Positions 11,124 through 56,599 of a DNA stretch of 64,000 bases are shown in pieces. The position numbers and the translations under genes were made by a program. Position 1 is the stretch's first letter. Every line of letters starts with the position of its first letter. Source of the stretch: Diphasiastrum complanatum. Taxonomy: Eukaryota > Streptophyta > Lycopodiopsida > Lycopodiales > Lycopodiaceae. The stretch covers positions 62,565,141-62,629,140 of the forward strand of contig CM055100.1 in assembly GCA_029204225.1 (NCBI GenBank), read 5' to 3'. Under the pieces are notes generated by a model. The model was not told the DNA's origin and ran no database searches. It saw only the letters and a program-made list of their open reading frames with translations.

Positions 11124-13130
11124 TCATAAACATATTCTTGAGTAGACATACAGACTTTTGAACAAAAGACAAACTTTTGATTCATCACCTTCCTTCACAA
11201 AACCTGGAGGCTGCTCCATATAGATCTCCTCCTCAAGGTAACCATTGAGAAATGCATTAGAAACATCAAGCTGGAACATAATCCATTTGTGAAAACATGC
11301 AAGAGAGATGAGTATTCGAATTGTTACCATCTCTGCAACTGGTGCAAGGTGTCTTCATAGTCAAGACCTTTAATCTGTGAGTAGCCTTTGGCACAAAGTC
11401 TTGCTTTATACTTATTGATAGATCCATCATGATTATACTTGATTCTGAATACCCACTTACATCCAATCACATGCATGTTGTTTGGTGGCTCCACAAGCTC
11501 CCATGTGTTATTTGACATCAAGGCTTTAAATTCTTGGGTCATTGCTTCAACCCACTCCTTGGATTGAAAAGCCTCTTGGACATCCTTAGGATCTTCATCT
11601 GATATAAAAAGTGCGTGATAGGAAGTTTCACCTTACACTTGCCTTCCTTCTTCATCATATGTGAGCCTCCTTGGCTCAGATCTTGCTCGTGTAGATCTTC
11701 TGGGTGTGGTAGCTTGAATTTGCTCCTCCTCAAGCCTCGGCCTCACTTCTTCTTGAACAGCATCAAGATTGATGATTGATCTTGCATGAGTCTCCTTGAT
11801 CTGTGCATCATCCAAGTTAAACTTCTAATCTTCATGGAAGATCACATCTGTACTAACAACATTTTTGTGAGTAGAGGGCAAATAAATCTTGTATGCTTTT
11901 TTAGTGGATGCATATCCTACAAAAATTCCTTTTAGTGCACTAGGATCTTCTTTCTTCCTAGTTTCTAGAGGCACATGCACAAAGCATACACAGCCAAAAA
12001 TCCTAAGATGATCTACCTTAGGCTTTTTTTTATACAACATCTCAAATGGTGTCTTTCCTCCTATTGCAAGATTTGGAAGCCTATTACAAAGATAGTTTGC
12101 ACATGCAACTGCCTCTCCCCAAGATTCTTTAGGCAGATAAGCTTCTAGCCTAATGGCTTTTGCACATTTACACAAAGTTCTATTTTTTCTCTCAGCAACT
12201 CCATTTTGTTGAGGAGTATATGAACAAGAAAACTCTCTTTGAATACCCTCTCTCACAAAAATCTTTAAACTTATTGGAAGTGTATTCTCCTCCACTATCA
12301 CTTCTTGAAGCTTTTAACTTGAAAGGAAACTGCTTCTCTACATAAGCTTTGAAAGTAAGAAAAACATCATAGACCATGGCTTTTGAAGACAACATATAGA
12401 TCCAAGAATATCTTGTATAATCATCTACAAAAGAGACAAAGCAGTTGGCTCCTCCTTAGCTCTTAGTTGATGAGAAATGAACATCAGAGTGTACAAGTTC
12501 AAATGGTTGCTTTGTCTTGATACTTGATCTAGGAAAAGGCCTTATGTGTGACTTTGCAAGCACACAAGCTTCACAAGGTAGAAGCTCCTTCGACAGTGTC
12601 TTTGGTAGACCAACAACTTTTTCTTCTTTGACCATAGATTGCATGGCTTTGAATTTGGGATGATCCAATCTCTTGTGCCACAGATCCTCATGTAGAACCT
12701 TGGTCTCATAAGCATTATCTGAAATGTTAGCCCTCTTCCTAGAATCTAGTTTGTACAACTTACCAATTCTAGATCCTCTAGCAATAACTTCATTTTCTCT
12801 TGAGATTATACACTTGTCAACTTGAAACTTGACATCCAATCCACTATCAAACAACTGTCATACACTAATGAGATTCTTGGTCAATCTAGGTACATACAGT
12901 ACATCATGTAAGCAAAAAGATTTTGATGATAATGTATGCAATGGAATACTACCAATTTCTTCAATCCTACACTCTACATCAATAGCAGTATAGATTGATC
13001 TTTTTGCACCTAGATATGGCATGAGATTAGTGAAAGAGTTCCTAGAACTAGACATATGGGAACTAGCCCCACTATCTATCCACCAGACTTCTTCATTCTT
13101 AAAAGGAAAAGATGAAAAAGTAGATATCAT
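11124..13130 (-). pseudogene. Protease-integrase-RT remnant of copia C
   Basis: Minus-strand segments in order: aspartic protease with the active-site motif WWIDSGASSHM (about 13085), the pre-integrase zinc region WHKRLDHPKF and CEACVLAKSH (12540-12690), the integrase core (SDSGGEYTSNKFKDFCE near 12270; QQNGVAERKNRT near 12190), a proline/arginine linker, and RT from VIGCKWVFRIKYNHDGSINK to QLDVSNAFLNGYLEEEIYME (11240). The RT stops before the YVDD active site, and RNase H is absent. Frames change at least at about 12860, 12230, 11820, 11540 and 11325. Confidence 0.9.
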
Positions 13131-13153
13131 TAATGAATCCTCTCTTTCACTCT

Positions 13154-14025
13154 CTACACCCTCACACTCATCCTCATTAGTAAGGTTAGCTTGCTTAGAT
13201 TGGTTCTTCTTCTTGAAATAGTTTGATGCATAGTGTCCTTTCTTGCCACAGAAAAAACACTTGATCGTTGACAGTTTCTTCTTGCCACTGGATGTTGCAG
13301 CTTGTGAGGACTAATCCTCACCACCTTCTTTGGCTTTATCCTTCTTGAACTATTGTTGTCGTTTGCCCTTGCCTCTTGACTTGTCTCTGATGAAGAGTGC
13401 TTTGTCATCTCCACCATCTTTCAATGAAAGTCTGTTGATCCTCAACATCTTGTTCTCTTGCCTGCCTTTAGCAATGAGAACACCTTGCAGTGTCTCCAAG
13501 GATGGAAGATCCTCCCTAACAACATAAGTCTGCACAATATTGTCATACTCATCTCTAAGTCCATTTAGGACTAGTTGAACAAGTTCAGTGTTCTTAAGAG
13601 CATCACTAATACCAGCTAACTCTTGATGAAGATCCTTAACTCTCATGACATATGATGAAGCACTCTCATCTACTCTCTGATAACTTAGAAATATTTGGTT
13701 TCTAAGTGTAAGCAATCTAGAAGTATTTTTTATTTCATAGATTGTTTTTAGAGTATCCCAAGCTTCCTTGGCAGTGGTGCATGTACTGATCTCTCTTAAC
13801 ACTTCATAGGTAACATTCATTTTTATAAAATGCAGGGCAATTTTTGATTCTTTTGTGGAGTGCTGCAGCTTCATTAGGTGCAGCAGGTTCTTCTTCAGCT
13901 CCACTCACAATATCCATTACATCCTGTAGAATCAACAATGATTCCATTCTGATCTTCCACATTGCATAATTGAAAGATGTTAATCTCTCACTGTGCTCTG
14001 AGAAATGTGAACCAGATGAAGACAT
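13154..14025 (-). pseudogene. Gag remnant of copia C
   Basis: The minus-strand ATG at 14025 opens MSSSGSHFSEHSERLTSFNY. A frameshift near 13870 leads to the UBN2-type gag (KMNVTYEVLREISTCTTAKE ... LVQLVLNGLRDEYDNIVQTY) at 13350-13870. After another shift comes a zinc knuckle CFFCGKKGHYASNYF (about 13230-13255), in which the last cysteine of CX2CX4HX4C is replaced by tyrosine. Confidence 0.85.
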
Positions 14026-14778
14026 CTTCTTGCTGAGAAATTCTAGTAATGATAAAAAATGGAGTTGAAAGGATGTTGCTTGCTATCTCAATCTAGGATC
14101 TAACACAGATGTTGATCCACCCTATGAAATCTAGCAACAGATGTGAGAACAAATTCTCAATACAGAAAATCAATCTATCTTGAATTTGGATCTTGCTTCA
14201 GTCACAAAAGAAGAAGCACATGCAAGCAAGAAGTCTATCTCTCCCACAGGTTTCAAAGTACTGATAAACTCTCTAGGAACTTACTTTCAACTCAAACATA
14301 GTAATATGTGTGAAATGAAAGTCTAAGACCTCAGAACACTCACTTCTATCCAATTTTACTTGATTGACAGTGAAAATTGATGAAAATTGTGAAAAAGATA
14401 GATGTGTGCTCACTTTGGCATATCCCACGAGTTGAGTACCCTCAAACTCTCTGATTACCTAGGACTCTTATAAAAACAAATCAAATTGATTTATAAACAA
14501 GAGCAACACATTCTACTCTTCAATACCTATCCAACAAGCTATAAAACATCAAATTTGAATCATTCCTTGAAAAGTAGCACTCATTAATGAGGGCTAATTT
14601 CACACGTGTGAGCTCTCTGTCCGTACAGAGCTCCGTTGGATCAGATCAGCCTTGATTTTATCCACTTATGGTCCACGAATTGCTTGTTTCTCAGCGAGTT
14701 TGAATCCCTCTCCAAAATCCGAGTTCTTGCAAGCAAAAACACTGATGATCTGATGTATACACCCTCACTTCTTCAAAG

Positions 14779-14796
14779 CATGAAGCTCTGATACCA
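14779..14796 (-). other. Primer-binding site of copia C
   Basis: On the minus strand TGGTATCAGAGCTTCATG directly follows the 5' LTR end. The first 12 bases are the classic complement to the 3' end of plant initiator-Met tRNA. Confidence 0.9.
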
Positions 14797-15526
14797 TGTG
14801 AAGTTTTTAGCATGTGTGAACTTCACCACACACCCTACAGGATCTTACTAAGGTGTTGTGATTGTACAAGATTGATCTAAGAACAGTATGCTTGAAAAAT
14901 CTAAGGCAAGGGCACAATGGCATACATCTGATGAAAAGATCTAACTATTCACTATGAGAAATGAATGTCAGAAATAATTCTAAGTGTTCAGTATGGGAAA
15001 AGGAGGTTGCTTTTGGGTAGAGAGAGAAAATCAAGCATAGAAAACTCGAATAGAGAGAGAATGAGTCCAAAACACCAAAATCTCAATATTCACAATGTGG
15101 CAAAACATGCCTAGCTTTCCCTACATGAGAGAGACTCGAATTCCTACAGTGAAGTTGCATGGAAAGTCCACTTAACTAAACTAATTCACCTACCAGAGAT
15201 CCACATGTGTAACTGCATGCATGTATGTTGCATGTACTGCATGTCAACTCATAAAACTGCCTAGACATGTGTAGATCACATAAACTACTTTGCATGTTGC
15301 ATGCACTGATTGCATGTGGCTTGCATGCATACAGTAAGACTTTGCATGCTATCTAAACATCTGCATGTCATCATAATTGAACCTATATAACTCAAATCCG
15401 AGCTACACTAGAAGGATATGTGCTCAATTCACACTCCTTTTATGTACAACATGAAATTTAGTGGAAATCACCATGGACATGATCCCAAACTCGAGATAGG
15501 AAGATAATATTTTAATAATCTTCACA
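14797..15526 (-). repeat. 5' LTR of copia C
   Basis: 730 bp with TG...CA ends, next to the primer-binding site. The outer end at 15526 is followed by the target duplication GATCG. Confidence 0.95.
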
Positions 15527-15671
15527 GATCGTACATAGTATATAATATAATCAAAGATGAGTATTTTGTTTTGCTTCATAGAATCTGGTCATAATACTTT
15601 GATGCAACTGATTACTCTATTCTTTTTTTGATGATGACATTGTATCATCTACATGTGGATATCCCTATTGA

Positions 15672-17779
15672 TTTGGCACCTTTGCAGAGAAGAGGAGGCA
15701 AAGGAATTCAAATATCTGTTGAGGATCGTTCTCGTTACAGGGCAGAAGAGAAAAAAAACTTGGATCTGTGGATAGATGGAACATTATATTGACATTTGGA
15801 TTTTATTTCAGCTATGGTGATATTCTGTTAACTATCTGTTTTTTTTGCAAATCTGCATTAGTAGTTGCTCGGAATATTAAAGACAATGCTTCACTAGGAA
15901 TGTCATTGGGCACAATATTGACTTGCAAATCCACGGAGTGTATCATGATGAACAATAGGAGTTCAAATGTAAAGTGTAAAATAGCAGAGTATTTGATGGT
16001 GGACATTCAAAAAAATTTAGATAAGACTATAGTTCAGGGTGCTTGTGATTTTGCAGGTATTAGTAGGGAAGCATATGCAACAATATTTAAACTAATTAGA
16101 GAAGCTTTTAAGCAAGTTCAAATTAGAAAAGTCCCATTCCCTAGGATATATCACTTGAAGAAAGAGAAGGATACATAAACATAGGTATGCATAAGATCAC
16201 TAGAAATCCATTTCATATTGAGGAGGAGTATGAAACTGATGGAAGAACGATATTTTATAATTCATCAAACAACTTATTTGTTAATCTAAATTACTTGTTG
16301 AGATACATCGTCACATTCTATGATATAACCTACGAAAAGGTGAATGACAAAATAATCATAGTACTTAAGTTAGATGAGTCAAAAATTGCGAAAGAGCAGA
16401 AGATGGAGAGGGTTAGTATAACTCTCATGAATGGTGCTCTATCACAAACAGAGAACCAAGAGGATTTCAGATTCTGTGTCTATTCAGAAAATGATATATG
16501 GTGATTGGCAGCGTTTCAAGTAACTAGCCTCATTATTACATTACATTCATTGAATAATATTAATTCATTATAAACTAAGTCTGATTAATTTTTTGGACAA
16601 GTGCTGAAGGAGGATCATGATATATTATCATGGATATTCTCAAGGACATCTTATCCTAGGATTATCAAGGACCATATGGATGGAGGACTTCTCAAAGTTC
16701 TAGGAGTTGGAGACTACAATGTTGAATAGCACTTAGCAGGTGATTTGAAAACATTGAAATGTATGTATAGTGTCTCTCATGGTGCTACATCAAAACACCC
16801 TTGTTTGTACTGCATGAAAATGGCAAAAGATGTAACTAGGAGTACAGGAATCACTAGAGAATATGCAGATCCAAACTGGAAGCCTGTGTTGCCTATCCCC
16901 TTGAAAAATGTGCATGTTTGCACTCTTCATGAAGAAGTTAGATTAATAGAAAAGATCATTTATCTTCATATAATTTTTGCTTGGAATACTAAGCCAACTC
17001 ATTAGCAAGGAAGCTATCTCTCGATTAGAAGATGTTTTATCAAAAGCAAGACTCCATAAGGGACATGTCAAAATTCAAAAAAATGAAAAGTTTTCAGGAA
17101 AGAATGGGAACATGCCAACTAAGCCGAGCATAGGAGGAGCAAAAGCACGCCGTTTCCTATCAAATCATACTGGTAAGGCTTCTAATATTCAACACTCATT
17201 CTGGACAAATATTATTGCTGCCACTCAGGACTTTGAGAAAGACGGCAAAACCAAAGTACTAAAAGTTGATGTATGGAAGAAGCTTGATAGTATGATTGCT
17301 ATTTTAAGAAAAGAAAAATACTCTGATATTGATAAAAAAGTTCTACAAAGGACTTGTGTCGAGTTTGTTAATGTAGTATCAAAAGCATGGGGAGAAGATC
17401 ACATCACTCATTACATGGTTAGTATAAAATTTTCAAGATGCTTTCAATTTTTCATATATATTTAGATCCAAACATAAGACTAACATTATGATTTTGACAT
17501 ATTTAGCACATAGTAAGAGATCATACATCATTTTTTGCAAACACATATGGAAGCTCGAGTGTATGGTCATCACAAGGGATGGAGAAGTCACACTGGCAAG
17601 CACGAGCAGCATTTCATCGAAATACACAACATGGAGGAACCAATGAAAAATGAAACTACATTTGTCAATTGTTTCAGTGGTTTTACCGCAGAGTTCAGAT
17701 CCGACATATAACAAAGTCCACACAATACAACAAGTTTAGAAAAGCATGCAAGTTCATACAGGAAGAGAAAATTAGATGA
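15672..17779 (+). pseudogene. T2 transposase-like gene (unassigned superfamily), decayed
   Basis: Plus-strand coding segments in several frames: 15672-15770 (GGKGIQISVEDRSRYRAEEK), 15838-16178, 16187-16504 (KLDESKIAKEQKMERVSITL), about 16600-16976, 16977-17417 and, after a GT-AG intron (17418-17506), 17507-17779. Features seen: a D in KLDES (16373), a D in HLAGDLKTLKCM (16742), a PCLYC pair, VHVCTLHEEVRLIEKI, GGAKARRFL, and an E in SSQGMEKSHWQAR (17582). Spacing and context suggest a DDE-type transposase with a CxxC insertion; assigning the three acids as catalytic is inference. Lesions are an in-frame TGA at 17651 and frameshifts near 16180, 16510 and 16985, though some of these may be unrecognised introns. 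Confidence 0.6.
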
Positions 17780-17913
17780 TTGTTGAGTAGAAGATCATCA
17801 TTGTCATCAAATCATCACATGTTCAGAATTGATTTGCAAATTCATTGAACAAGAGAGGAGAAATACTCAATGTAAATGTACTAATTGTATTACAACAAAA
17901 TACAAAGTGTCAA

Positions 17914-18900
17914 CTATTCATCATCAGATCGTGTGTCAGATTCTATGGCAGTATTGTCATGAAGAAATTCTCTACTACCGTATGCATCTAATAGATGTGC
18001 ATTATCCTTATTTCCACTAAGCTCAATATAAGTGGAATACAATGAATAATGGGAGCTCCTTAAAGGAACATTCCCATCAGTAAAACCTAAAATATTCAAA
18101 ACATAAGATCTTTTGACAAAAATGATCTTATTTGTCTTAACAAATTTATGTCCTCCTAGGTAAGATAATAAAGCTTTAACTACCATTATAAGACTCTCCC
18201 CAACTGGGCTCAGCTTGGAATGAGCAATACAGATCTCATTCTTTAGAAAATGCCTAAGATAGTGGCCAAGTCCACTATCCCTCTGGAACGAGGATGCGTG
18301 TTGTCTGAAACCACCTCGTCTCACAGCTGAAAAGACATTTAGACTCCTCTATAGGGACTGATTCATCAGCAGATGTATTTTGGCCAATAAAAAAAACCCG
18401 GAGAACATCAGTATTTACATCAATAAAGTCACTTTTCTTATCAGGAGTGTCGATAAGGAAGTGGCTGATATCCTGAATAGCTGACTGAACAGAGGATGAT
18501 GCAAAATGAGGGTTAGCAACAGAAACTTCCTCATCATCTGGGATCTGAACTAACAGAAAAAGTACGAAACCACTCTGATATTCAACCAATCGACATTTCT
18601 TGTTGCAATAAGGACACATCGAACTGCTTTTGAAAAGATCAAACAATTTGGTGAACATTCTATCTAGTCTATGTCTGAAAGCTGGGAAGAAATGAACAAG
18701 ATCAGTATAAAGAATATACTGGAGTGAACCTATGGAGAAAAGCTTACTAAGTATATCTCTGAATCTAACATAATGTTCATAAAATACGTCAGAATTTGGT
18801 TGTGCAGTCTTGAAAACATGTAGATATGGCCTGAATAGGCTGTGGAAGTAGTCTAGATTTTCAATAATCCCAGATTCAGTAAAAAAATGAACTCAAGCTT
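17914..18900 (-). pseudogene. T2 unknown gene 1 with a CPYC motif
   Basis: Minus strand. One frame runs from about 18890 (FTESGIIENLDYFHSLFRPY) through SSSMCPYCNKKCRLVEYQSG and SADESVPIEESKCLF to about 18290. A second frame takes over near 18290 (GLGHYLRHFLKNEICIAHSK ... LLSYLGGHKFVKTNKIIFVK) and ends at a stop at 17914 after an acidic tail. The switch at about 18290 is a frameshift or an unseen intron. Two CxxC-type cysteine pairs suggest a metal site. I do not recognise the family. The start is not fixed. It lies tail to tail with the transposase-like gene and head to head with the Ulp1-like gene. Confidence 0.45.
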
Positions 18901-18935
18901 GAATCTTGAGGAAAAGGCCATGGAAGTAACGTAGA

Positions 18936-19584
18936 TATTGCACTTGTGCGCGAGGGAGAACTAAAACAAGATTAACTCTCAAGGTCGTGCACAAGAGAGA
19001 TATGTATGGTAGGTAGATACCGAATATTGCACTTGTGCGCAAGTAGGTATTGTTGCAAACAAACGGACAAGAATGTGCGTGCGATATGCCGTGAATTTCG
19101 AGAACGAAAAAGGTAAAAAATTACTCGGGCTTCATGCCATTTATACTAAATTCTCACACGTGCGGTCAACAGTCAAAGGACACGTGTCTACTTTCAATTG
19201 GACTACAGGCACTGGCACGTGTGAGGTGACACCTTGACACGTGTGAAATGACACTTGTACACGTGTCTCATGTTCATTCGTTTGTTCGACAACACGTGTC
19301 GCTCTCGCATTTGCCCGTACAAATCTCACACGTGTAAAGTGACAGGGTGACATGTGTCACTCTCGCATTTGACCGTACAAGTCCCACATGTGTGACAGGA
19401 CGTTCTTTCGCACGTGCGAACCGTGATATAAAATCACAAACTTCGATGAATTTTTTCACTTTTTTTTTCGCTCCACATATTGCACTTGTGCGCATCCTTC
19501 ACAATCGATATTCTTCCTACCGCCTTACATGTGCACAGGTCTGATACATCTGCCTATGTGTCTCCTCGTATGGCACTTGTGCGC
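18936..19584. promoter_or_regulatory. Divergent promoter spacer of T2 with repeated motifs
   Basis: The 12-mer GCACTTGTGCGC occurs four times in the same orientation (about 18940, 19028, 19481 and 19573), usually preceded by TATT. A minus-strand TATA-like TATAAATGG lies at about 19136-19144 and a plus-strand GATATAAAATC at about 19424. The spacer lies between a minus-strand and a plus-strand gene of T2, as expected for a bidirectional control region. The function is inferred. Confidence 0.5.
19157..19416. promoter_or_regulatory. Cluster of eight CACGTG (G-box) palindromes
   Basis: CACGTG occurs at 19157, 19181, 19216, 19238, 19260, 19293, 19329 and 19411, mostly as ACACGTGT, with CATGTG variants between. 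About 0.06 copies would be expected by chance in 260 bp. G-boxes bind bZIP and bHLH factors in plants. Here they could serve host-factor regulation or transposase binding. Confidence 0.6.
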
Positions 19585-19744
19585 CTTTCTTCTATACTAA
19601 TCTATCTCTCTTATATTCGGCTCGCATAGGTTCGATATACCGTACATTCTGTTCATACATATCGGTCCTCTGCAAGTTCTTTATCATCCTTCCCTGCTCA
19701 TCTTAGCCGTCACGCACAAGTCCACTATCCCATAGTACACATCC

Positions 19745-20941
19745 ATGGATAGGAGAAAGCAGACAAGGAGGGACTTCTTCTCTCCTGGCTCATCCTCAGC
19801 TCCTGCGGTTGCCATTACACCTCCCACTATACCTAGGACGCGCAACCGCAGCAGGTGGCTCTCTGAGATACGTATGTATCAGAGGTCAATATTCCTGTAG
19901 ATACTACACATCCACCTCCTCCTCCTCCTCCAAATCTTTATACATATATAGATTCTGATGATTATCTTAAATTTGAGAAGGACATATTCGATGCTATAGA
20001 TACAATTGGTACTCCTTTTTGTTTTAGACTAGATGAACTTGATTTTAGTATAAATTATAGAGTTCTTGATTGTTTGGATCTCAAAGATAGACGGGCTTCT
20101 ATCAGTGATCCTCTGATAGAGTCCAGGCTTACAGTCTTGCAATATGACATTGCAAGAGATTCATCCAATGAGTTGCTGGTGCTGGGTAACTTTCTGCTTC
20201 AGGCCTTCAAGGAGAATAATAACACATTGTCATAGTGTCTGACTAGTGGATTCACACCAGCAACAAAATATCTGCTCATCCCTTATCATACCAAGTAAGA
20301 TGTATTAAATGCTTCTTGTTGTTTCATGCTTTAACATTGGCATTGTCAATGGAAATAGTTCTCAGAATTGCAACTAAAGAAATTTCAATCTTATTTTGCA
20401 GTGACCACTGGAGTTTAAACCTGATCTCTATTAAGAGCTTTGTAGATAATAGTATTAAAGTTTTTTGTGTCAAGATGAATTCGACGAGCAATACGCATAA
20501 GGATGTAGATATATACCTTTTATATTTAAGTAAATATATTCCTACAGACGTTCCCCATTCTGTGGACTGGCAGATCGTCAGTTTGGAGGTAAATTCTGTC
20601 TTTCTTAATAGCATTTTGAAATCAGTATTCTAATGTATTTGTTTCATTCTAATTCATTCTGTTTCATAATTGATTTCTTGTGTGCTGAATTTTTTTGCAG
20701 TCACCCCAGCAAAATGATTCATTCAACCGTGGGTGGTACACATTATACAATGCCAAGTTATTTTTTGAGTGGTTCAACCTTCAGGAAGATGTTGATATTT
20801 CTAAGGTAATAAATTCTGTTTATTCTTATTTTTGTAATCATAATTAGTTTTCTATTTTGTTGATGTTTTTAGCCATTACTAATACATGAATGTTCTATCT
20901 TGCAGTTTACACTTCCTAAGTACACATCAAGCCAGGTGTAA
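19745..20941 (+). pseudogene. T2 Ulp1-like (C48) cysteine protease gene, catalytic Cys lost
   Basis: The ATG at 19745 opens a basic N-terminus (MDRRKQTRRDFFSPGSSSAP). The frame changes near 19878 and then runs (with a TAG at about 20234) to ATKYLLIPYHT at 20294. Segments: to 20294, 20402-20588, 20701-20805 and 20906-20941, joined by three GT-AG introns in correct phase, ending TAA. The joined YHTNDHWSLNLIS carries the His-Trp pair of Ulp1/SUMO-protease domains. PQQNDSFNRGWYTLYNAKLF matches the Gln...Asp-Cys-Gly region, but the catalytic Cys is Arg (CGT, one base from TGT). The middle acidic residue is not recognisable either. In living copies it may cleave SUMO-like or transposon proteins; this one should be inactive. 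Confidence 0.6.
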
Positions 20942-21291
20942 AGATTTAGATAAGAAATTATCCTGAGTATACTGGCTAGGGCAAGGCTTCAACCTCCCGT
21001 TATTGATGATGGTGCAAAGGATGATGTAGTTGTACTAAATTAGGATTAGAATAAATACGAATAGCATAGAACAAAAATACATGTATAGAATTCATAGATA
21101 AATATACATTGATATATCAAATGCTACTCCATTTTATGAATTTGGGAGCACAAAATACATGTATTGATGCCCAACTTGGGCTTTCATTTATTGAATGAAA
21201 GAGTGTATACACAGATTTTTACTAAAGTTTATTTGAAACTATTGTTCTCCCACAATGGTGATTGTTGTAGGTAGATCTTTGCAGCACATTA

Positions 21292-22608
21292 TCAGCTCCT
21301 GTCTTTTTCGCATCTGTGACATGACAAATATTAGTGAATGTGCAATTGTAAATGATGAAATTCTCAATTATTTTGTTCTATTTTGAAATGGCAATAAACA
21401 CAAAGTACTTACAAGTCTTCCGTTGATAATAAATCTGAAATATGTTGGTAGATTGGTTTGTATAGCATGAGCTCTGTTCTGATAAAATCAAGCTTCCAAT
21501 GCTCTTCCACCTCAACCATAGTCAAATATTCCTCATTGTAGACAATGCTTATCTCCATTCGTTTTGTGTGACCATTTAGTTCAAAGTCATGATCCAGTGG
21601 TAGCCATGTACCTTCAATTTTCTTGTATCTCTGGTAGCTAAATGTGAGACTAAGCATTTGCTTTTCGATATGATAACAAAAGATCATTGAAGACTTTTTA
21701 ATCCTGCATTTTATGTCATTATTTGTTTTACTATCCCAGCCTTGATCCATGAGATCTGACAAAGTCTCATCTGATAAATCTTTGCAAACAAATAAAGTTG
21801 GTGTCCTACGAACACTAGCACTCGAGAAAAAATCAACAAATATATGTAATGAGATAAACCAGCTTAGGTGAACAATTTTCGAGCCTATGCTTATCTTCAT
21901 AGCATTTCTAATATCAATGAGTAGCTTGCATCTCAAGGATTCGGAAACAATACTATCAAGAGTAGGCCACTCATCACTTTGAAAACTAGGCAATGGAAGT
22001 GCTTTGAGCTTGCCAAAACTTCCATCTGTTTGTGGCATATATAAAGATTTATAAAAATAGATACCACAATCTGCAAGTTCCTTTGGACTTCTTCCTCAGT
22101 ATTGCAGCTTTCCAACATCAGAGTGAATCATGTCTAATATTCCTGCAAGTGATTGTGCGAGTTCCCATTCACTTATGCATGATGGATATAAATCTGAAAG
22201 AAAAAAACAATGTTGAGGCATTTAAATCATAACTCTGAAGAGCATCAATAAAGAAAATCACCTATGATTGCTGTAGAGTGCATATGTTTTGATATACTTA
22301 CAATTACATTTTTGATGATCATGAGGATTGATATCATGTACTTTGATTTTTGAATGCATATATACATGTTGTACTAAGACTTTTGATATCGATTGACCTC
22401 CCGGGGTAGTCTTAAACTCCAAAATTTTTGCTTTCCAATAAGATTTGTAAGTCATTTTTGCTCTTTTCTTTTGTCGAAAGTTGCCCTTTGATGGATGCAG
22501 CAATACCCATGAATTCTTCATATAATTTGTTGGCTTCCAGTTATCAGCTTCATCTTTCTCATTGTAAAGAATCACAGAGTCGGTTGTAGATCTGGGTCTC
22601 CTTGCCAT
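21292..22608 (-). pseudogene. T2 unknown gene 2, three exons, one nonsense codon
   Basis: Minus strand, ATG at 22608. Exons are 22608-22302, 22193-21413 and 21313-21292 with GTAAGT donors and CAG acceptors in matching phase, giving about 369 codons. Only one in-frame TGA (about 22102) breaks it. The N-terminus is basic (MARRPRSTTDS), followed by DNWKPTNYMKNSWVLLHPSK, a CNYLYPSC pair, YKSLYMPQTDGSFGKLKALP, SDEWPTLDSIVSESLRCKLL and an acidic C-terminus. I recognise no named domain. Its near-intact state inside a transposon suggests an element-encoded accessory protein (inference). Confidence 0.5.
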
Positions 22609-22619
22609 TGCTATTTTCA

Positions 22620-22990
22620 AGCTTGGGCACCAAAAACCTCTCTGATATGATATTTAATTTCAATTTTTCGTATCACATTTAATCTAATGTAAATGCCAAC
22701 ATAGTCACAGTTACTACGTATACCATATTTTATGTAATTGTACATACTGTATTTCTATAACTGTAACTAGTATAGTTAGAAAATTTCACTAACCAGCATA
22801 GTTAAGTAAATTTAACTTGAGATATTGACGTCGGGTAGATTAGCATGTGTCAGGCAGGAAGAAGAAACCAATGAGATATGTCCATGCTGCCCGGACACAA
22901 ATTTTAAAGTTTTCTATATTGCATTTTTATTTCTCAATTAATTTGAACTATGTTACGTAGATTTCAAATCTGTGCATTTTGATTGGGCCT
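22620..22990. other. AT-rich right flank of T2
   Basis: Noncoding. Contains loosely repeated CATAGTTA/TATAGTTAG motifs (about 22770-22815). This should include the right end of T2. No terminal inverted repeat matching 9849-10326 was convincing. Confidence 0.4.
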
Positions 22991-22999
22991 GGTGACCTT

Positions 23000-23626
23000 A
23001 GGTAGGATCTGATACCACGTGAATTTCACATGTGTGGAGTGTCCGCCACATGTGATAATGATCTCCTAAGGTGTGTGGATGCACAATGATCAAGATTAGA
23101 TTGAGATTCAATATCTATCTTACTCTTAATGGAGTGGATCCTTTGGTATGCATAAGAAGTGAAGATCAGCCAAGGGATCCATCATAGCAGCACCCTCACC
23201 ATATCCATGATTAGATTTTCTTGGTAGAAATCATTTGCAAGCAATCTCTTGACCAAACCAAATGTGTCCTACCTAACCCTCTTCAAAAGCTTATAACTTT
23301 TGAGTAGCTCAACCAAATGGAATGAACTGATTGCATAAAAAACTAGACGAAAATAGCTTCAAAACAAGCTATCTAGCAAGATTTTTGGATCAAACATGGA
23401 AGAGAACTCTCAAACTGAAATTGGATGTTCCTCACACATGTCTGAGCACTTGATTTTATACAATACTAGGTTAGACCCAATCAATGCCCTATTAATCTTT
23501 TTTGATCCAAAATTGAACAAGATAGCTAGGAAAATAAATCTTGACAATTTCTAGCTCAATATTGGTAGAAAATTTTCACACTAGTGGATGAAAATGCATG
23601 GTAACCTTAGGTAGGATCTGATACCA
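23000..23626 (-). repeat. Rearranged second LTR/leader block of copia X
   Basis: From low to high coordinate: primer-site sequence (23000-23017), the last ~113 bp of an LTR (23018-23130), a piece matching 7750-7850 near the 3' LTR (23131-23235), a piece matching the leader at 9500-9848 (23236-23575), and the primer site (23611-23626) of the full 5' LTR. This is what an LTR-internal-LTR-internal tandem with two large deletions would leave. Confidence 0.65.
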
Positions 23627-24442
23627 TGTGAATTTCACATGTGTGGAGTGTCCACCACATGTGATAATGATCTCCTAACGTGTGTGGATGCACAATGATC
23701 AAGATTAGATTGAGATTCAAGATCTATCTTACTCTCAATGGCAAAAACACACTACTACATGCATTAACTCACTTCCAAAGTACATACACACGTGTGGGAA
23801 GTGTTCCAAAATAAAACTAAGTAAAATTAAGCTCCTCTCCTCGGGTAGAGAGAGAATCCTACCAATGGCTCTCGAATAGAGAGAGAAAGCTAGAAAACAC
23901 TTAGACTCAAAATCACTCAAGATCATCAAATCAATTAGCATAGAATGAGTAGTACAATGATACTATTTCACACTCAAACATGATTGGACCTCACGTTTAC
24001 AACCTCCTAATCCTATTGGACCATTCACTCATCCATCTCTCCATTCTATTGGACCATTCTCAAGCATATCTCAAATCCTATTGGACCAATGGTACTTCCA
24101 CCTCTTAATTCTATTAGACCTCTTGAACTTTGACTTGTCACACATCAAACTAACTAAATACACTTGTCAAGGAACTATTTAGCTTGAGTTTTTCACTTGT
24201 GCTTTTGGTCTAATAAATTCAAAACAAGTGTACTTCACTAATTGACCTCTAAAGCCAAAAATGGCTCAATCTACTAATGACACCTAGAAGCTTGGCTATG
24301 AAACTTTATGAGACCCCTATAACAAACATTTTTAATATATTTTACAATCCACCACATTCGGGAACATCCTTCACACATGTGAGATTCACTCACATACTTC
24401 TATTATAAGAATACCAAGCTAGATTTTTGCCAATTTCTCACA
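23627..24442 (-). repeat. 5' LTR of copia X
   Basis: 816 bp with TG...CA ends, the partner of 6871-7687. It is followed on the minus strand by TGGTATCAGATCCTAC, a near match to the initiator-Met primer site, at 23611-23626. Its outer end is followed by TGAAT, matching the bases before 6871. Confidence 0.9.
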
Positions 24443-24447
24443 TGAAT

Positions 24448-24643
24448 GTGTCGGTGTTTCCATGAAACTTGTACACAATGGAATAACATACCTCATCAAT
24501 TACTTGCCAAAATATTCCATTGGAGATTCCCAATAGATTTTGATATGCTTTTATGCATACAACATTACCATCCAACGTAGGTTTGAAGCGCAATTTGGGT
24601 TCCTCCAAAATATCAACCATTGTGTTTGATATTTCTCGTCTAT
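24448..24643 (-). pseudogene. T1: upstream exon of the split DNA-transposon gene
   Basis: Minus strand, after a possible acceptor (TTTTTTTCATAG, ending at 24644). Reads RREISNTMVDILEEPKLRFK, then TLDGNVVCIKAYQNLLGISN, to FHGNTDT at 24448. The frame is then broken by copia X and resumes at 6865. Upstream sequence is cut off by copia D at about 24700. The superfamily is not recognised. Confidence 0.5.
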
Positions 24644-24708
24644 GAAAAAAACATTTGAACATATGCACAACTTACTGTGAAGAATTGAAAAAGATTATCT
24701 ATGTTAGA

Positions 24709-27700
24709 TATAGCTTGGGATTGTTTCAAGACTATCTATGAGGCTAAGAACACCTCTAGACTCCTCACTCTTAGAAATCAAATCTTCCAAAGTAGCCAAA
24801 AGAGTGATGAGAGTGCATCTAGTTATGTTTTGAGAGTAAAAGATATTCATAGAGAGCTTGCTTGCATTGGTGATTCCATCAATCAAAATGAGCTAGTCCA
24901 AGTCATTCTCAATGGCTTGAGAAGTGAATTTGATAACATTGTCCAATCCTATGCCATTAAGGAGGAGCTACCAAGTTTGGAGGCTCTCCAAAGTGTGCTA
25001 ATTTTCGAAGAATCAAGACAATAAGTATAAGCTCTTGAGGATGGACAAGCTTTCTCTCACTCATAATGATGGAAAAGCCCTCTTTTTCAAGGACAAGCAA
25101 GGACAAAGCCAAATCCAAAGACAAAGATGAGGAGGAAGATGATTCCTCTAATGCTTCATCATCCAAGCTCAAGAAGAAGAAGATCAAGTGCTTTTATTGT
25201 GGCAAGAAAGCCCATTATGCCACCAATTGTTTCAAGAAGAAGAATCAACTCAAGCAAGCCAACATCACCAATGAGAAGGAAGACACTATTTCAAGTGATG
25301 GAGAGGGATCTCTTATGGTCTCTAGCTTCTCATCCACTCCTTTCAAGAAGGACGGCTTATGGTCTATTGATAGTCGAGCCTCTTCACATATGTGTAGCTC
25401 CAAGGATTCTTTCTCTTCTATTGCAACTTATGATGGAGTCAAGAAATCAATATACACTACAAATGATTTTGAATGTCCTATTGAAGGCATAGGGAACATC
25501 TTTCTCTTTCTAAAGTTCTTTATGTGCCTAAGCTTACTAAGAATCTCATTAGTGTTGGCCAATTGCTTGATAATAGCCTTGATGTAAAATTCAATGTTGA
25601 TACTTGCACTATCAAGACGAATGATGAGATACTATAAACTAGATCCAAATGAATATGTGAATGCTTGTAATATTGCTCTTGTGAACAAGCTCTCTATGGA
25701 GGAATTATGGCATAGGAGGTTGGGACATCCCAACTACAAATCCATGCTCTCTATGATCAAAGAGGCCAAAGCTATTGGCTTGCCAAAGTCGTTCTCCAAG
25801 AAAATCAAGCCTTGTGAGGCTTGTGCTATTGCTAAATCTCACAAAAAAGCCATTTACAAGACCTTCTATCGAAAGCAAGCATCCTTTGGAGTTAATCCAC
25901 TCGGATGTGCATTTCTCATCAACTATAAGCAAGGGAAGAGCCACTTGTTTTGTTACTTTCATTGATGATTTCACAAAATTCACTTGGATATATCTTCTTG
26001 CTTCTAAATCTATGGTGTTTGATCAATTCCCATTTTTCAAAGCTTATGTAGAGAAGCAATTCTCATTCAAGATTGAAGCTCTTAGATGGGATGGAGGTGG
26101 TGAATATATCTCCAATAAATTTCATGATTTTTGTGAGCTTGAAGACATCAAAAGAGAGTTCTCTTGTGCCTATTATCCATCTCAAAATGGAGTGACCAAA
26201 GAAAGAATAGATCTCTTGTGAAAAGTACAGTACTAAGGACCATAAATGGATCTTTGAATGATCCACAAGGTGATTGTATGCTTGTTAAACAATCTATTAG
26301 AAACTAGTCATCAGAAAACAAGATCTAGTTTAGCAGCTTGATAGGAAACAAGTAGAGACAATCAAAGCATTGATCAAATAGTATAATCCAACTCCACACG
26401 TGTGGAAATAAGGCTGTAGTACGGCCTGTAGATAGTGTTTACAAAGTGCCAAAGCTGGCTTTCATTGGAAATCAAGAGTAATTACCATACAATGAGAGGA
26501 AACTCGAGTTTCTCCTTGAGGCTCCAAAAAGTTTCTATCTTCTCACTATGGAAAATGGGAATACATAGTAAAACACACTTCCTTTGCAAAGTTAGGTGAA
26601 AATACAGCATGTAATAAGGAAGTAGACTCCACTTTCTTTCCCTAATGTGAAAACCCTAGCCTAGATCCAAGAGTCATGCTTGGTAGGTGCATGGTAGGTA
26701 CAAATCTCATCATAAATCATGGTCTAGATCCTACAAAGTAGGAATCACTACCAAATAGACACAACCACTCTTGACTCGTGGTAACCTACTTTAGGTGTGT
26801 ATGTACAAGTGGCACTTTGGCCATTCAAGTAACCAACAAACAATATTGACAAAATGTACAATATTCTACATGGCTAGATTTGCCAATGTAGGCAATTTTT
26901 CACATCTCTATGTGAATGTGCAAAATCTATGAGAATTGAGGCATCTTTGCCCAAAGATTTTTGGGGAGAAGCCATTAATTGTGCAAATTATCTTTGCAAT
27001 AGGCTCCCACATATAGCTCTTGGAGGGAAGTCACCATATGAAATCTTATATTTGAAGAAGCCTAAGGTTGATCACCTTAGAGTTTTTGGATGCATATGCT
27101 TTGCCCATATTCCCTTGGAAACAAGGCAGAAGGAAGATCCTAGTGCATGCAAAGGGATCATGGTTGGATACTCATCCACCAAAAAGACCTATAGAGTCTT
27201 TGTACTCTCTACTTCTCAAGTTATTGAAAGTAGAGATGTTGTCTTTCATGAAGATCAACATTCATCTTTTGGAGAGGCCGAGATCAAGAAGTCTATGGAT
27301 GCATCACCTATTATTGATTTTGAAGACAATTATGATGTGATGGGGTTGAGAATTGAAAAAGACTCTCCTCAAATTTTCTCACCAAGACGATCCATGAGAG
27401 ATAGATCCGAGCCTAAGAGGCTCTCATATGTTGACAAGGGCAAACAAGTGGATTTTGATTCCACTAATTATGTTTTTTATGTCTCTCATGAAGAGCCAAA
27501 TAATGTACAAGAGGCACTCAATACCAAGGAGTGGTATGATGCCATGAAGCAAGAGTATGATGCACTGATCACCAACAATACTTGGGAGCTTGTGGATCCT
27601 CCATCCACCAAGCATGTGATTGGTTGCAAGTGGGTATCTTGGATCAAGTACAATCATGATGGCACCATTAGCAAGTATAAAGCAAGATTATGTGCCAAAG

Positions 27701-42913: not shown

Positions 42914-45898
42914 TCATGTCATGTTGCACATGCCAGCTGAAGCAATGAGATTTGACAAGAGCACATAAGGTGTAGGATTCTCAGGATCCATTGCAAAGAC
43001 ATGACTTGCAGCACGTATTCCACGTTCCACATCGCCATGAACTCTACAGGCACCTAGCAAATTCAACCATACCCTAGCTTCACTTTCAAATGGCATATTG
43101 TTAATCAACTTCTCTGCATCATCCAGATGTCCTGCACGACCCAGGATATCAATTAAGCACATATAATGCGCAAGCTTTTGTGATACACCATGGTCTTTAC
43201 TCATGGATTCAAAAAAACGTGCGGCATCATCAACCCGTCCGGTATGGCTACATGCAGCAAGAACACTGAGGAAGGTGACATGATCTGGCTCAAATCCGTC
43301 ACGCTGCATTTGGTCGAACGCATCCAGAGCCTCTTCCCCATGCCCATTCTGAGCAAATACGGCAATCATGGAATTCCATGAAATGACATCTCGCTGGGGC
43401 ATTTGGTTAAAGACAATCCTAGCATCCTCCAAACTGCCACACTTGCCATACATACTGACGAGGGCATTTCCAAAGATGACTTGTCCCTCGTATCCCTCTC
43501 TAAGAATAGCAGAATGGATTTCCTGGCCCTTGTCAAGGGCAGCTATACTGGAGGCGGCATCAAGTGCACAGATATAGGTCACTCGGTCTGGACTGATACC
43601 GTGGAGCTGCATTTGATAAAAGTATTCCAGTGCCACCTTCCCATGCCCATTCTGGGAGCAGGCTGTAATCATGGCATTCCAAGAGACAACATCTCTATTG
43701 GGCATTCGGTTGAATACGCTCCTTGCCGCATCCAAATTTTCGCACTTGCCATACATATTTATCAAGGCATTTGCCACAGCGACTTCACCTTCGTATCCAT
43801 CTTCACTAATGGAAGCATGGATCTTTTGCCCCTCATCAAGGACAGCTAAACTGGCACAGGCATCGAGAGCACAAAGGTAGGTGATCTGATTTGGTGCAAT
43901 ACCATCACAATCCATCTGATTTAATAGTTCAAGAGCTTCTTTGCAGTGCCCATTCTGAGAGCATGCAGCAATCATGGCATTCCAAGTTACTAGATTACGC
44001 TGGGGCATTCTGGCAAATACAGATCTTGCCTCCTCCAAGTTCCCACACTTGCCATACATGTGGACGAGGGCAGTTCCCACATTGACCTGCCCCTCATATC
44101 CACTGTCTAGAATGGCAGAATGAATTTCCTGCCCTTTCTCAAGAGCAGCCTGTCCAGCGCATGCATCAAGAGCGCTAACAAATGTGATATGATCTGGTCT
44201 CAACCCATTGTGCTGCATCGTATCAAACAAATCTAGGGCCTCCTTGCCATGCCCATTCCGAGCTAATGCTGCGATCATGGCATTCCAGGAGACTACATTT
44301 CGATGGGGCATTCGGTTAAAAAGATTCCTGGCATCGTCCAGATTCCCCAGTTTGCTGAACATATTAATCAGTGCAGTCCCAACTACAACCTGTTCCTCAT
44401 ATCCACCTTTGACAATCGCAGCACGGATCTGCTTCCCCTTCTCATGCGCAGCCTGGCTGGCGCATGCATCAAGGGCTGAGACGAAAGTGATTTGATTTGG
44501 GGCGAGGCCGTCGCATTGCATTCGGTCGAACAAATCCAGGGCAACTGTCACATGCCCATTCAGAACACAAGCTGCAATCATGGAATTCCAGGCAACCACA
44601 TCACGGTTGGTCATCCGATCAAATATACTCCTTGCATCCTCCAAACGGCCACATTTCCCATACATGTTGATGAGGGTAGTCCCCACAACAACATGTCCTT
44701 CATACCCACCGTTGACAATGGCAGCATGGATCTCCTGCCCTCTGTGCAGAGCAGTCAGACTGGTGCATGCATCGAGGGCACAGATAAAGGAGACTTCATT
44801 TGGCTTGATTCTTTCTTGCTGCATCTGATTATACAAATCCAAGGCCTCCTTACCCTGCCCATTCTGAGTGCAAGCAGACATCATGACATTCCAGGAAGCC
44901 ACATTCCTATCATGCATTTCACTAAACACACTTCTTGCATCTTCCAGACTTCCACATTTTCCATACATCCTAACAAGAGCATTTCCAACAGCTACCTGTT
45001 TCTTACATCCTCCGCCATCCGCAATAGCAGCATGAATCTCTTTCCCTTTTTCAAGAATAAGCAATCCAGCGCATGCATCTAGTGCACACATGAAGGTTAT
45101 CTCATCTGGCTTCAGGCCTTCCCCATGCATCCTATTCAGCAAATTTAGGGTTTCCTCGCCATGCCCATTCTGAGCACAAGCTCCCATCATAGCATTCCAA
45201 GTAGCCACATTCCGATGCGGCATAAGATGAAAAACATTCCCTGCATCCTCCAAACTACCACACTTGCCATACATATCAACCAGCGCGGTGCCAACAAACA
45301 CATTTGTGCCAAACCCTGCATCAACAGCCGAGGCATGGATCTTCAGGCCCTGCTCTAGATTACCCTGGCTGGCACAGCCATTTAGGGCACAGATAAAACT
45401 GATATGATCTGGCTTGAAGCCAGAAAGCTGCATTTGCTGTAAGCACTCAAAGGCTTCTCTGAAAAATCCATTATTGGTAAAAGCTTTCATAAGTATATTC
45501 CACGAATACAAGTTTACCTTTGGCAGATGATCAAACACAGCCTTTGCGTCACTGATGCTCCCACACTCGCCATACATCTTGATGAGCCAATTGCCCAGGA
45601 ACGTGTCCCCACCATAATTGCATCCGGTGATGTGGGCATGCACAATTTTGCCATCGGCCAAGGCCTTGGTCTGCCCGCACTGCTTCAGCAGAGATACCAA
45701 GGCAGCAACGCTAGGGTTCGTGCTAAGCAGCTGATGAAGATTGTTCAGAGGTGCTAGGGAATGTAGCTTCCGATGCCATTGCTCCTTTAATGGCAATGAC
45801 AATTCTTCAAACTCTGCTGGAAAAATATTGCAAATTACAAAGCTACGCCATCCTCTTCTACACAGAAACAGCGCATGTAGGGCAGGTCGAGTTTCCAT
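42914..45898 (-). CDS. PLS-class pentatricopeptide repeat (PPR) protein, intronless
   Basis: Minus strand. The ATG at 45898 (METRPALHALF) gives 994 aa; a GTG four codons upstream is in the same frame but ATG is preferred. The N-terminus is hydrophobic and arginine-bearing, consistent with an organelle transit peptide. PPR motifs follow from about residue 60. Eight near-identical units of about 101 residues each carry a MYGKCG motif and a [ST]WN[AS]M[IM] motif, the P-L-S pattern of RNA-editing PPRs. The C-terminal part has LLAACSHTGRVDDA, LIDILGRAGHLDDAEKLI and WLNLLGACRVHGDVERG (E1-like) and then stops after YVLLSNLIASAGMCNMT. The E2/E+ and DYW deaminase domains seen in full editing factors are absent, and no DYW follows in any frame for 200 bp. 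Likely an organellar RNA-binding factor that would need a separate deaminase. No lesion seen. Confidence 0.9.
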   Translation of the reverse strand: METRPALHALFLCRRGWRSFVICNIFPAEFEELSLPLKEQWHRKLHSLAPLNNLHQLLSTNPSVAALVSLLKQCGQTKALADGKIVHAHITGCNYGGDTFLGNWLIKMYGECGSISDAKAVFDHLPKVNLYSWNILMKAFTNNGFFREAFECLQQMQLSGFKPDHISFICALNGCASQGNLEQGLKIHASAVDAGFGTNVFVGTALVDMYGKCGSLEDAGNVFHLMPHRNVATWNAMMGACAQNGHGEETLNLLNRMHGEGLKPDEITFMCALDACAGLLILEKGKEIHAAIADGGGCKKQVAVGNALVRMYGKCGSLEDARSVFSEMHDRNVASWNVMMSACTQNGQGKEALDLYNQMQQERIKPNEVSFICALDACTSLTALHRGQEIHAAIVNGGYEGHVVVGTTLINMYGKCGRLEDARSIFDRMTNRDVVAWNSMIAACVLNGHVTVALDLFDRMQCDGLAPNQITFVSALDACASQAAHEKGKQIRAAIVKGGYEEQVVVGTALINMFSKLGNLDDARNLFNRMPHRNVVSWNAMIAALARNGHGKEALDLFDTMQHNGLRPDHITFVSALDACAGQAALEKGQEIHSAILDSGYEGQVNVGTALVHMYGKCGNLEEARSVFARMPQRNLVTWNAMIAACSQNGHCKEALELLNQMDCDGIAPNQITYLCALDACASLAVLDEGQKIHASISEDGYEGEVAVANALINMYGKCENLDAARSVFNRMPNRDVVSWNAMITACSQNGHGKVALEYFYQMQLHGISPDRVTYICALDAASSIAALDKGQEIHSAILREGYEGQVIFGNALVSMYGKCGSLEDARIVFNQMPQRDVISWNSMIAVFAQNGHGEEALDAFDQMQRDGFEPDHVTFLSVLAACSHTGRVDDAARFFESMSKDHGVSQKLAHYMCLIDILGRAGHLDDAEKLINNMPFESEARVWLNLLGACRVHGDVERGIRAASHVFAMDPENPTPYVLLSNLIASAGMCNMT

Positions 45899-45967
45899 GC
45901 CACCGCTCACGTCCTCATTGGCATGGTCCTTGCTTCAAATCGTGCATTCATCCACAAAGAAACTAAG

Positions 45968-52825: not shown

Positions 52826-54400
52826 CTACGGTGGCCAGTATTTGTGCAATCGGCTACCATTGATGGGTGTATCGAATGGTGTCCCATCTAGCTTTTCTAA
52901 ATTCACAGCTCCATGATTAAGAATTTCCTTGATCCGATAAGGACCTTCGCCTGTGAATTTTAACTTTCCCTTGATAGCCTTGGTTTTATACATCAGGACC
53001 AGATCTCCGAAGCGAAGATCCTTCTTTTGTAACCTGCGATTGTGCCATGTTTTGCGTCTTTTCTTTTCAGCTGCCAGTGCATGAACAACTAGTAAGCGTG
53101 TTTCACAGAGTTTATGCAGAGCGTTGTGGCATAGTTGTAGAGATTTGGATTCATTCAGGCGTTGCATTGTAGCAATCCTTAATGAAGGAACTAGAGACTC
53201 TACTAGCATTACAGCATCCTGACCATATACCAATTGGAAAGATGTTTGGTCAGTGCTTCCCTTATATGATGTCCTGAATGCCCATAGAGCAACATGTAAC
53301 TTATGTTCCCAATCTGATCTGCTAGCTTCAACTATTTTCGTGAGCACGCTACACAAGACCTTATTGGATGATTCTGCTTGTCCATTACCACGAGGGTAAT
53401 AAGACGTACTGGTTCTATGGATCATGAAAAATTCTTCCAACAGGACCTTGATGGTCTCATTGATGAAATGACTTCCGTGATCGCTGGCTAGCTCCACCGG
53501 GCATCCAAAGCGCACAATGATATTTTCATAAAGGAATTTGGCAGTGGTCCTAGCATCAGCTACTCTTACTGCCTTGGCTTCGACCCACTTGGTGAGATAG
53601 TCTATGGCTACAATTATGTATCAAGCCTAGGAACTCCTTGCTGTAGGGTGAATTGGACCGATGTAATTCAATCCCCACTTTTCGAATGGTGCTTGGGCTA
53701 AGACCGGGTGCAATAGGTCATAATTCAATCTCGTTGGTCTGGAAAGTTGTTGCATAACACTTATTTCTTCCTTGAACAAGAAACAGAATATTTCGTGACA
53801 AGATTTTGTTCGCAAGTCTTTTGAGCTTCAACAAGAAAGCCACGAGCTTCTACAAGAAACTATTTCGCAAATCTTTCGAGTTGACTGCAAGACAAATTTT
53901 GCAAATCCTTCGCGAATTTTTTCGAGTTGGTCACGAATAGAAATGTTTCGAGTTTGCATTCGTTTCTTTCTCATCCTTTGTCAAGTAAACTACGCGCTTT
54001 GTTAGTAGAATCAAGATCTGTCTGAATAGTTGTTCTACAATTCCCTCTCAAAGTGGCAGTTGAATTAACTCCAATCTTCTTCGCTGCTTCTAGAACAAAG
54101 CTTTACTTAGTGGCTTTGTAAAGATATCAGCTATCATTTCCTCTATGGGTATGAAGTCTGTCTTCAATATCTTCTTCTCGACTAAGTCCCGAATCACATG
54201 ATACTTGATAGCTATGTGCTTGCCCTTTGGCACACATCGCACTTTTTCAAGTATTCCTCCGTATCCTTGTGAATTGTTGGCCACCAACATCCTGATTGCA
54301 GGATCTTGCGAACTGTAATGTCGGATGCAAAATGGCCTCCACCCATGCCTTCATGTGAAAGTGAAATGATCTGGGTGGCCTCATGAGGGAGCATACACCG
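52826..54400 (-). pseudogene. Integrase of gypsy element G, split by a copia fragment
   Basis: Zinc-binding HHCC part ends with TEEYLKKCDVCQRAS (about 54220). After the copia fragment it resumes with RPTRLNYDLLHPVLAQAPFE (about 53735), KWGLNYIGPIHPTA, then core ASDHGSHFINETIKVLLEEF and TSYYPRGNGQAESSNK (53380-53500), and a C-terminal part to LDGTPFDTPINGSRLHKYWP. Apart from the insertion and a stop near 53625, the 229-codon last segment (53515-52826) is open. Confidence 0.85.
53745..54225 (-). mobile_element. Copia 3'-end fragment inserted in the G integrase
   Basis: Minus strand. Begins in RNase H (KHIAIKYHVIRDLVEKKILK, then MIADIFTKPLSKALF), followed by a short noncoding stretch with CGAA/TCGC-rich phrases (53810-53960) that is probably LTR. 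It sits exactly between the conserved CDVCQRAS and RPTRLNYD of the gypsy integrase. Only the 3' end of the copia is present. Confidence 0.75.
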
Positions 54401-56191: not shown

Positions 56192-56599
56192 CTCGTGAAC
56201 TGGAGCTCATCAAGATTCCTCCTTCAGCATATTGATCTTAGCCCGACTGGTCATTTTTTGATTTTCAGTCACCTGTGTAGAAGATGACGTTGTATCTGAG
56301 TCCATCTTGATTGACTTCAAGAAATCCAACACCTTCTTTTTGTCTTATTTCGTCATTTTGGTGGATTCTTCCTTGTTGTCTTTCATCGGAACTGCCGTGA
56401 CATTCGTCTCGTGGTTGCAAATATCAACATCTACCGTAGCTATCACCTCTTTAGGTAGATCACTCCAACGTATCACCTGGTTGTAGCGTTGCTTCAACTG
56501 ATTCTTCTTATTCGTAGGTGCCTTGGGTGGATCGATCCTTGAGACTTTCGCCATGGCAGACTTTTGTGGTGGTTGAGCTGGTACTTTCTTGAATTCATA

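Follow-up and report, generated by a model that had tools for sequence, protein, structure and literature searches.

A truncated copy of a multi-gene DNA transposon occupies positions 15527..22996 (+) of a 64,000-nucleotide stretch of the Diphasiastrum complanatum genome (the window; NCBI GenBank assembly GCA_029204225.1, contig CM055100.1, positions 62,565,141 to 62,629,140 of the forward strand). The arrangement of coding units shows four genes in alternating orientation (+,-,+,-), with a transposase predicted to have the RAG1/Transib fold (gene A, 15688..17776, +), a protein with a CPYC motif (gene B, 17917..18921, -), a predicted histone H3-Ulp1 (C48) fusion (gene C, 19745..20938, +), and gene D (21242..22608, -). 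The initial annotation had proposed from this layout a possible undescribed four-gene transposon, a claim of novelty that depended on the units occurring together elsewhere, and BLAST comparison with 20 family copies fetched from the 1.74 Gb host genome locates them together at other loci, so the claim is not refuted on that count.

All BLAST matches longer than 150 nucleotides between window positions 13001-26000 and the 20 copies and their flanks lie within 15527-22996. Sister copies extend past both positions up to terminal inverted repeats (TIRs), and these positions are therefore breakpoints of a truncated copy rather than the element ends. Compared with copy L012, the window lacks 421 nucleotides at the left end and 72 at the right, including both TIRs, and has internal losses of 497, 496, and 424 nucleotides at 15789/90, 18327/28, and 19889/91. 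Of the 20 copies, five (L009-L013, with L009 and L010 near-duplicates of each other) give alignments that reach from the transposase to the right boundary of the window copy. In four others (L014, L015, L021, and L028) parts of every one of the four genes survive, which is not so in the remaining 11. A host-genome search with window 16000-18000 lists 41 matches (best 40 of 5206 candidates scored), 40 of which, the window itself counted, are 1.3-2 kb long with 92-100% identity and are scattered across many chromosomes. Since the transposase stretch has 40 close matches among those listed, the four-unit cluster is not a chance assembly. One match, G000:C9:62460107-62462100, lies 121 kb upstream and is 100% identical (rounded) over 1,993 bases, indicating a very recent duplication.

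The element is a cut-and-paste-type DNA transposon, of which the window holds a decayed copy. The ends, seen by joining neighboring stretches of three copies, are formed by TIRs of ∼36 bp (CATTAGAGGAGTTCTCAATATCAAAAAGACCCTTTA) in inverted orientation that enclose genes A to D in a full length of ∼9.4 kb (9,414 bp in L012). The termini read CATTAG...CTAATG, that is 5'-CA..TG-3'. A 25-base TIR pattern allowing up to two mismatches has 1,051 + 1,093 occurrences, and the backward control has none. Among the first 100 listed TIR matches, all on C1, ends are dense at 64.97-66.7 Mb and 95-98 Mb. The four ends sampled in each dense interval have one flank in common and therefore represent one insertion amplified with its surroundings, possibly within large repeat arrays, rather than repeated insertions.

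Gene C is assigned from Pfam matches to Histone and Peptidase_C48 and from a splice check giving a four-exon model. The C48 domain confirms the Ulp1-like gene of the initial annotation; the N-terminal histone H3 domain went unseen there because the third deletion removed most of it from the window, leaving a remnant of the H3 fold at 19835..19888 (+; RTRNRSRWLSEIRMYQRS) with the rest deleted at 19889/91. In copies that retain the stretch, the "Ulp1" gene opens with a domain of histone H3, a DNA-packaging protein. It matches Pfam Histone at E 3e-21 in a copy whose loop 1 has a gap and at 5.5e-26 in copy L055, and the best solved-structure H3 match has E 7e-22. Loop 1 is retained in L013, L015, L020, L026, and L028, and the domain has the complete fold, with the KRVTIMPKD loop and the H3 loop-2 motif. 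The same frame continues into a basic, proline-rich linker, and a GT-AG intron (20295-20401), one of the in-frame introns already recognized, joins LLIPYHT to NDHWSLNL in frame at the start of the C48 protease (Pfam E 5.5e-6, on a read-through combining several copies). In C48 peptidases a histidine and a cysteine have catalytic roles, and both positions lie within 20403..20736 (+). The histidine is present (DHWSLNL) and the cysteine position is an arginine in the window (NDSFNRGW, 20713-20736); the cysteine is kept in all 11 sister copies, of the 20, in which the exon was found and also in L055. The domains and splice sites together show gene C as a predicted histone H3-Ulp1 fusion. At least 150 histone-bearing loci occur in the host, many with stops, and the loci listed keep the fold.

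Selection on the reading frames was assessed by comparing the synonymous share of variants common to at least two copies with that of private variants. Synonymous changes account for 26 of 57 shared variants in the histone (27% expected, p 0.002) and 24 of 75 private ones; for 49/97 (29% expected, p 7e-6) and 28/104 in the remainder of gene C exon 1; for 58/158 (p 0.0075) and 37/182 in gene B exon 1; and for 21/43 (p 0.0038) and 22/97 in the last exon of gene B. Fisher p values for shared versus private variants are 0.0005, 0.0006, and 0.002 for the gene C exon 1 remainder, gene B exon 1, and gene B last exon, respectively. These shares support the view that the frames of genes B and C have probably been under selection.

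Gene A is a decayed gene of several exons, carrying stops and a frameshift in the window in addition to the 497-nucleotide deletion, and is identified from its relatives and from the fold match of one of them. The relatives number 27 (E 2e-126 to 8e-33); one of them, P0027 from Adiantum, stands outside the alignment of 26 and is alone in having a Pfam assignment computed beforehand (PF25070). The three acidic residues that the initial annotation listed are found at exactly its positions, and the CxxC block is present. The putative first and second catalytic aspartates, at codons 16373..16375 (KLDES) and 16742..16744 (GDLK), occupy invariant columns of alignment A2. The candidate catalytic glutamate (GMEK, 17582..17584) is Glu in 19 of 20 copies, with Asp in L011. 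Among the relatives, three reach this position in the alignment (P0001, P0002, and P0007), each with Glu. Between the second aspartate and the glutamate lies a zinc-type motif at 16802..16930 (+), with C(2)C as CLYC (16802-16813) and H(4)H as HVCTLH (16913-16930), as that motif is defined in the excerpted text of PMC12730594. Gene A thus has the D, D, and E residues with intervening C(2)C and H(3-4)H that mark the CACTA-Mirage-Chapaev-Transib (CMCT) clade.

The fold prediction proposed in the initial annotation gives RAG1/Transib as the best solved-structure matches for a modeled relative of the transposase, including the catalytic fold, and supports a predicted RAG1/Transib-like fold with D, D, E and a C(2)C-H(4)H insert. 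RAG1 is the enzyme by which antibody genes are assembled. No match to RAG1/Transib was found at the sequence level, and none of the Pfam families shown (25 of 54) gives the 26 relatives a fit, E 0.0044 being the best value. Plant CACTA, hAT, and MULE transposase domains are all missing from the families shown, a missing CACTA match not being grounds for exclusion. The earlier statement that no superfamily could be named therefore holds in part, as neither Pfam nor the lack of a target-site duplication gives a clean fit with this gene set; the fold itself is recognizable, and because of it the transposase is placed near the CMCT group rather than being unplaceable.

Insertion takes place without target-site duplication or loss. 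The nine two-ended copies are four from the set of 20 and five pairs of opposed TIRs less than 10 kb apart among the first 100 listed matches. A direct repeat of at least 2 bp at the insertion flanks is absent in eight of them and is TCA in the ninth. The uninterrupted paralogue of the L012 insertion corresponds to both flanks joined with nothing gained or lost. When the flanks of the insertion C1:60101102-60110115 are joined, the resulting 158 bases have a match across the junction at 40 of the 40 places listed (best 40 of 2391), 37 without net length change and the others with +3, -1, and -1. The joined flanks of four of the nine insertions (p2, p5, L014, and L015) are open across the junction for 52-53 codons; those of p5, L014, and L015 resemble copia proteins in their motifs, and Pfam finds nothing in three of the four frames. 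Alignment of copy ends, as suggested initially, thus gives inverted repeats and no target duplication consistent among the nine copies. The 2-5 bp duplication expected of the CMCT clade is absent from the empty paralogue, eight of the nine copies, and the joined junctions. At the sites examined there is also neither the 5-bp duplication typical of Transib (and RAG), the 8-bp duplication of hAT, nor the 9-bp duplication typical of Mutator, and AAA|TTT, the Spy target, flanks none of the nine sites.

A second, diverged family is found in the host at about 35% identity with relative P0002 as the query, which lists 51 diverged transposase loci (best 51 of 20,241 candidates). A CENH3 query lists at least 150 loci, 13 at 59% identity, which look like host H3 genes, and 137 at 47-56%. 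At six of the 51 transposase loci a listed histone match falls no more than 6 kb away, and in each case it is on the opposite strand, 2.3-2.75 kb downstream. The number of such loci expected is 0.06 (P 7e-11) if both were evenly spread. One of the six, locus L067, contains a homologue of gene B (E 2e-9 over 204 amino acids in a single comparison, the intron being in the same place by eye) and a histone encoded as a separate gene ending RRLRRERN-stop (Pfam E 6.8e-28, 46% identical to that of the first family). The separate histone gene in this diverged family suggests that the histone may have come first and that its fusion to Ulp1 arose afterwards.

The observations are best explained by a transposon with a RAG1-like transposase that carries a histone as a conserved gene, a reading to which a probability of roughly 0.8 is assigned and in which the histone-Ulp1 protein may act on chromatin. 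We infer that the transposase would cut both element ends and join them to the target, with the target strands attacked opposite one another, which would account for the lack of a duplication. The H3 domain may be built into, or dock on, nucleosomes at the element or its target and would there deliver the Ulp1 domain, which could remove SUMO from chromatin proteins, the net effect being that silencing is escaped or chromatin becomes accessible for integration. It is from the domains alone that we infer a chromatin role for the histone, in protecting or positioning the element, and deSUMOylation by Ulp1. A broader proposal, offered tentatively and at clearly lower odds, is a self-chromatinizing lineage of deeply diverged RAG1-fold transposons that, in contrast to described relatives, would integrate without target duplication. 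An H3 variant, long held as a working part and fused in one branch to a SUMO protease, would let the element control the nucleosomes on its DNA or at the target.

Several points weigh against the chromatin-acting transposon. The RAG1 matches have TM-scores of 0.33 and 0.45 at 15% identity, and the model is of a relative, with a mean predicted local distance difference test score of 68 and the glutamate in a low-confidence stretch. Searches outside the host genome with the histone and Ulp1 parts gave no relative. In the selection analysis the shared-versus-private test on the histone alone is not significant (Fisher p 0.08), the transposase exons show no clear synonymous excess over 27% among shared variants (21/81 and 27/85), gene D is without power (seven copies; 4/16 and 3/8), and all p values are optimistic because the copies are related. 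Three of the six second-family loci lie within 0.6 Mb on C15 and are therefore perhaps not independent, the chance figure assuming an even spread. The L067 histone is not fused to Ulp1, Pfam detecting none in eight frames of 3.5 kb, and the order of histone first and fusion later is based on two families.

An unlikely alternative, although the best placed of those considered, takes the histone domain to be of CENH3 type and to direct insertion into centromeric chromatin. LLIPRA in place of LLIRKLPF, AEDY, DS, and a loop 1 that exceeds that of H3 by one residue resemble plant CENH3, and two C1 intervals are dense among the first 100 listed TIR matches. However, identity is slightly higher to canonical plant H3 (48-51%) than to Arabidopsis CENH3 (45-47%), the tree being weak and no host CENH3 gene having been recognized among the loci listed with the CENH3 query, the common flank of the sampled ends indicates local amplification in the dense intervals, and the 40 listed transposase matches lie over many chromosomes. 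Slightly less probable again is passenger capture, in which a fragment of host H3 (and Ulp1) was gained by transduplication and hitchhikes without serving the element. Transduplication of H3 by a fungal hAT, with the amplified copies inactivated, is documented in the excerpts of PMC6710886, and the stops in many clubmoss copies and the Fisher value for the histone alone would fit it. In contrast, shared variants of gene C favor synonymous changes where private ones do not, the fold is kept in the 150 histone loci listed, and the second family also has an H3 gene beside gene B.

The element is improbable as an ordinary CACTA/EnSpm, Transib, or Chapaev transposon whose target duplication escaped notice or has eroded. 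The RAG1/Transib fold and the 3-bp repeat at one of nine sites agree with such an element, as do the CA...TG termini and C(2)C, H(3-4)H motif common to the CMCT group in the excerpts of PMC12730594, but the exact empty paralogue, the 37 of 40 listed joined-junction places without net length change, the four open frames across joined junctions, and the lack of a Pfam family fitting the 26 relatives are contrary to it. A chance neighborhood of unrelated genes and nested repeats, prompted by the nest of long terminal repeat (LTR) elements in the window, is refuted by the other loci, where the same four genes are enclosed by the same termini.

Comparison with known systems places the clubmoss element closest to RAG1/ProtoRAG/Transib in transposase fold and in D-D-E with C(2)C, H(4)H. 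Transib/RAG differ in having a 5-bp duplication, where the clubmoss element has none, and CAC-type termini instead of CATTAG; genes B, C, and D are additional, and a RAG2-like partner was not recognized. Members of the CMCT group make 2-5 bp duplications, unlike the clubmoss element, and the excerpted text of PMC12730594 describes no H3 gene and does not contain the term Ulp1. Among fungi, hAT transposons with H3-like genes are described from Pyrenophora (PMC3538342) and the Mycosphaerellaceae (PMC6710886), the gene likewise lying between the terminal repeats of a multi-gene element. In the excerpts of these papers the transposase is of hAT type, duplications are 8 bp (Mycosphaerellaceae), an H3-protease fusion is not described, and the genes are regarded as transduplicated. 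A SUMO-protease domain is likewise found inside plant Mutator (Kaonashi/VANDAL, PMC13317346) and animal Ginger1 (PMC2836005) elements, which have other transposases and for which the excerpted texts do not mention a histone domain. Spy (PMC4482050, in excerpt) is likewise a TIR transposon without target-site duplication, differing in its PIF/Harbinger-type transposase and AAATTT target. No published description of this element or gene set was found in the literature searched, subscription journals and Repbase being outside the search.

The H3 gene kept in two diverged families, and independently in fungal hAT, suggests that a transposon benefits from having its own histone, and how mobile DNA manages silencing chromatin becomes a testable question. 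To our knowledge most work on RAG1-fold transposases has concerned animals. A large group of them in plants, with CA..TG ends and no duplication, would widen the range of the fold and bears on the spacing of strand transfer. The histone-SUMO protease fusion may serve as a natural tool for targeted de-SUMOylation.

The remaining features are genes B and D and the region between genes B and C. Gene B, defined by sister-copy frames, the second-family homologue, and selection, has its CPYC motif at 18605-18616, and its frames are longer in sister copies than in the window, which has the 496-nucleotide deletion; by eye an intron lies ahead of a conserved DA..D.FA..RGG stretch. Gene D is recognized from frame fragments in L009-L014 and L021. 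Pfam assigns no family to gene B or to gene D (for D, none above its cut-off). The divergent B/C intergenic region (18929..19584) contains repeated GCACTTGTGCG and ACACGTGT words as putative binding sites, and in the C11 copy this stretch repeats words of the ACACGTGT and CACTTGTGCG types, which are hardly found elsewhere in the element, forming a possible binding array. These words are likened to the short, non-coding motifs of anti-silencing factors in VANDAL elements (PMC13317346, in excerpt).

Around the transposon, direct repeats at 9542-9849/23264-23571 and 10327-10626/14797-15096 are LTR-like, nested, and 92-94% identical, suggesting that the transposon may lie in an outer LTR element along with an inner copia. 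Elsewhere in the window, a peptide/nitrate-transporter-like gene is seen by eye in fragments (1181-2947, +), as are a 1006-codon open frame for a pentatricopeptide repeat protein (42914-45934, -) and an LTR retrotransposon of the gypsy type in which fragments of reverse transcriptase and integrase remain (52826-57457, -).

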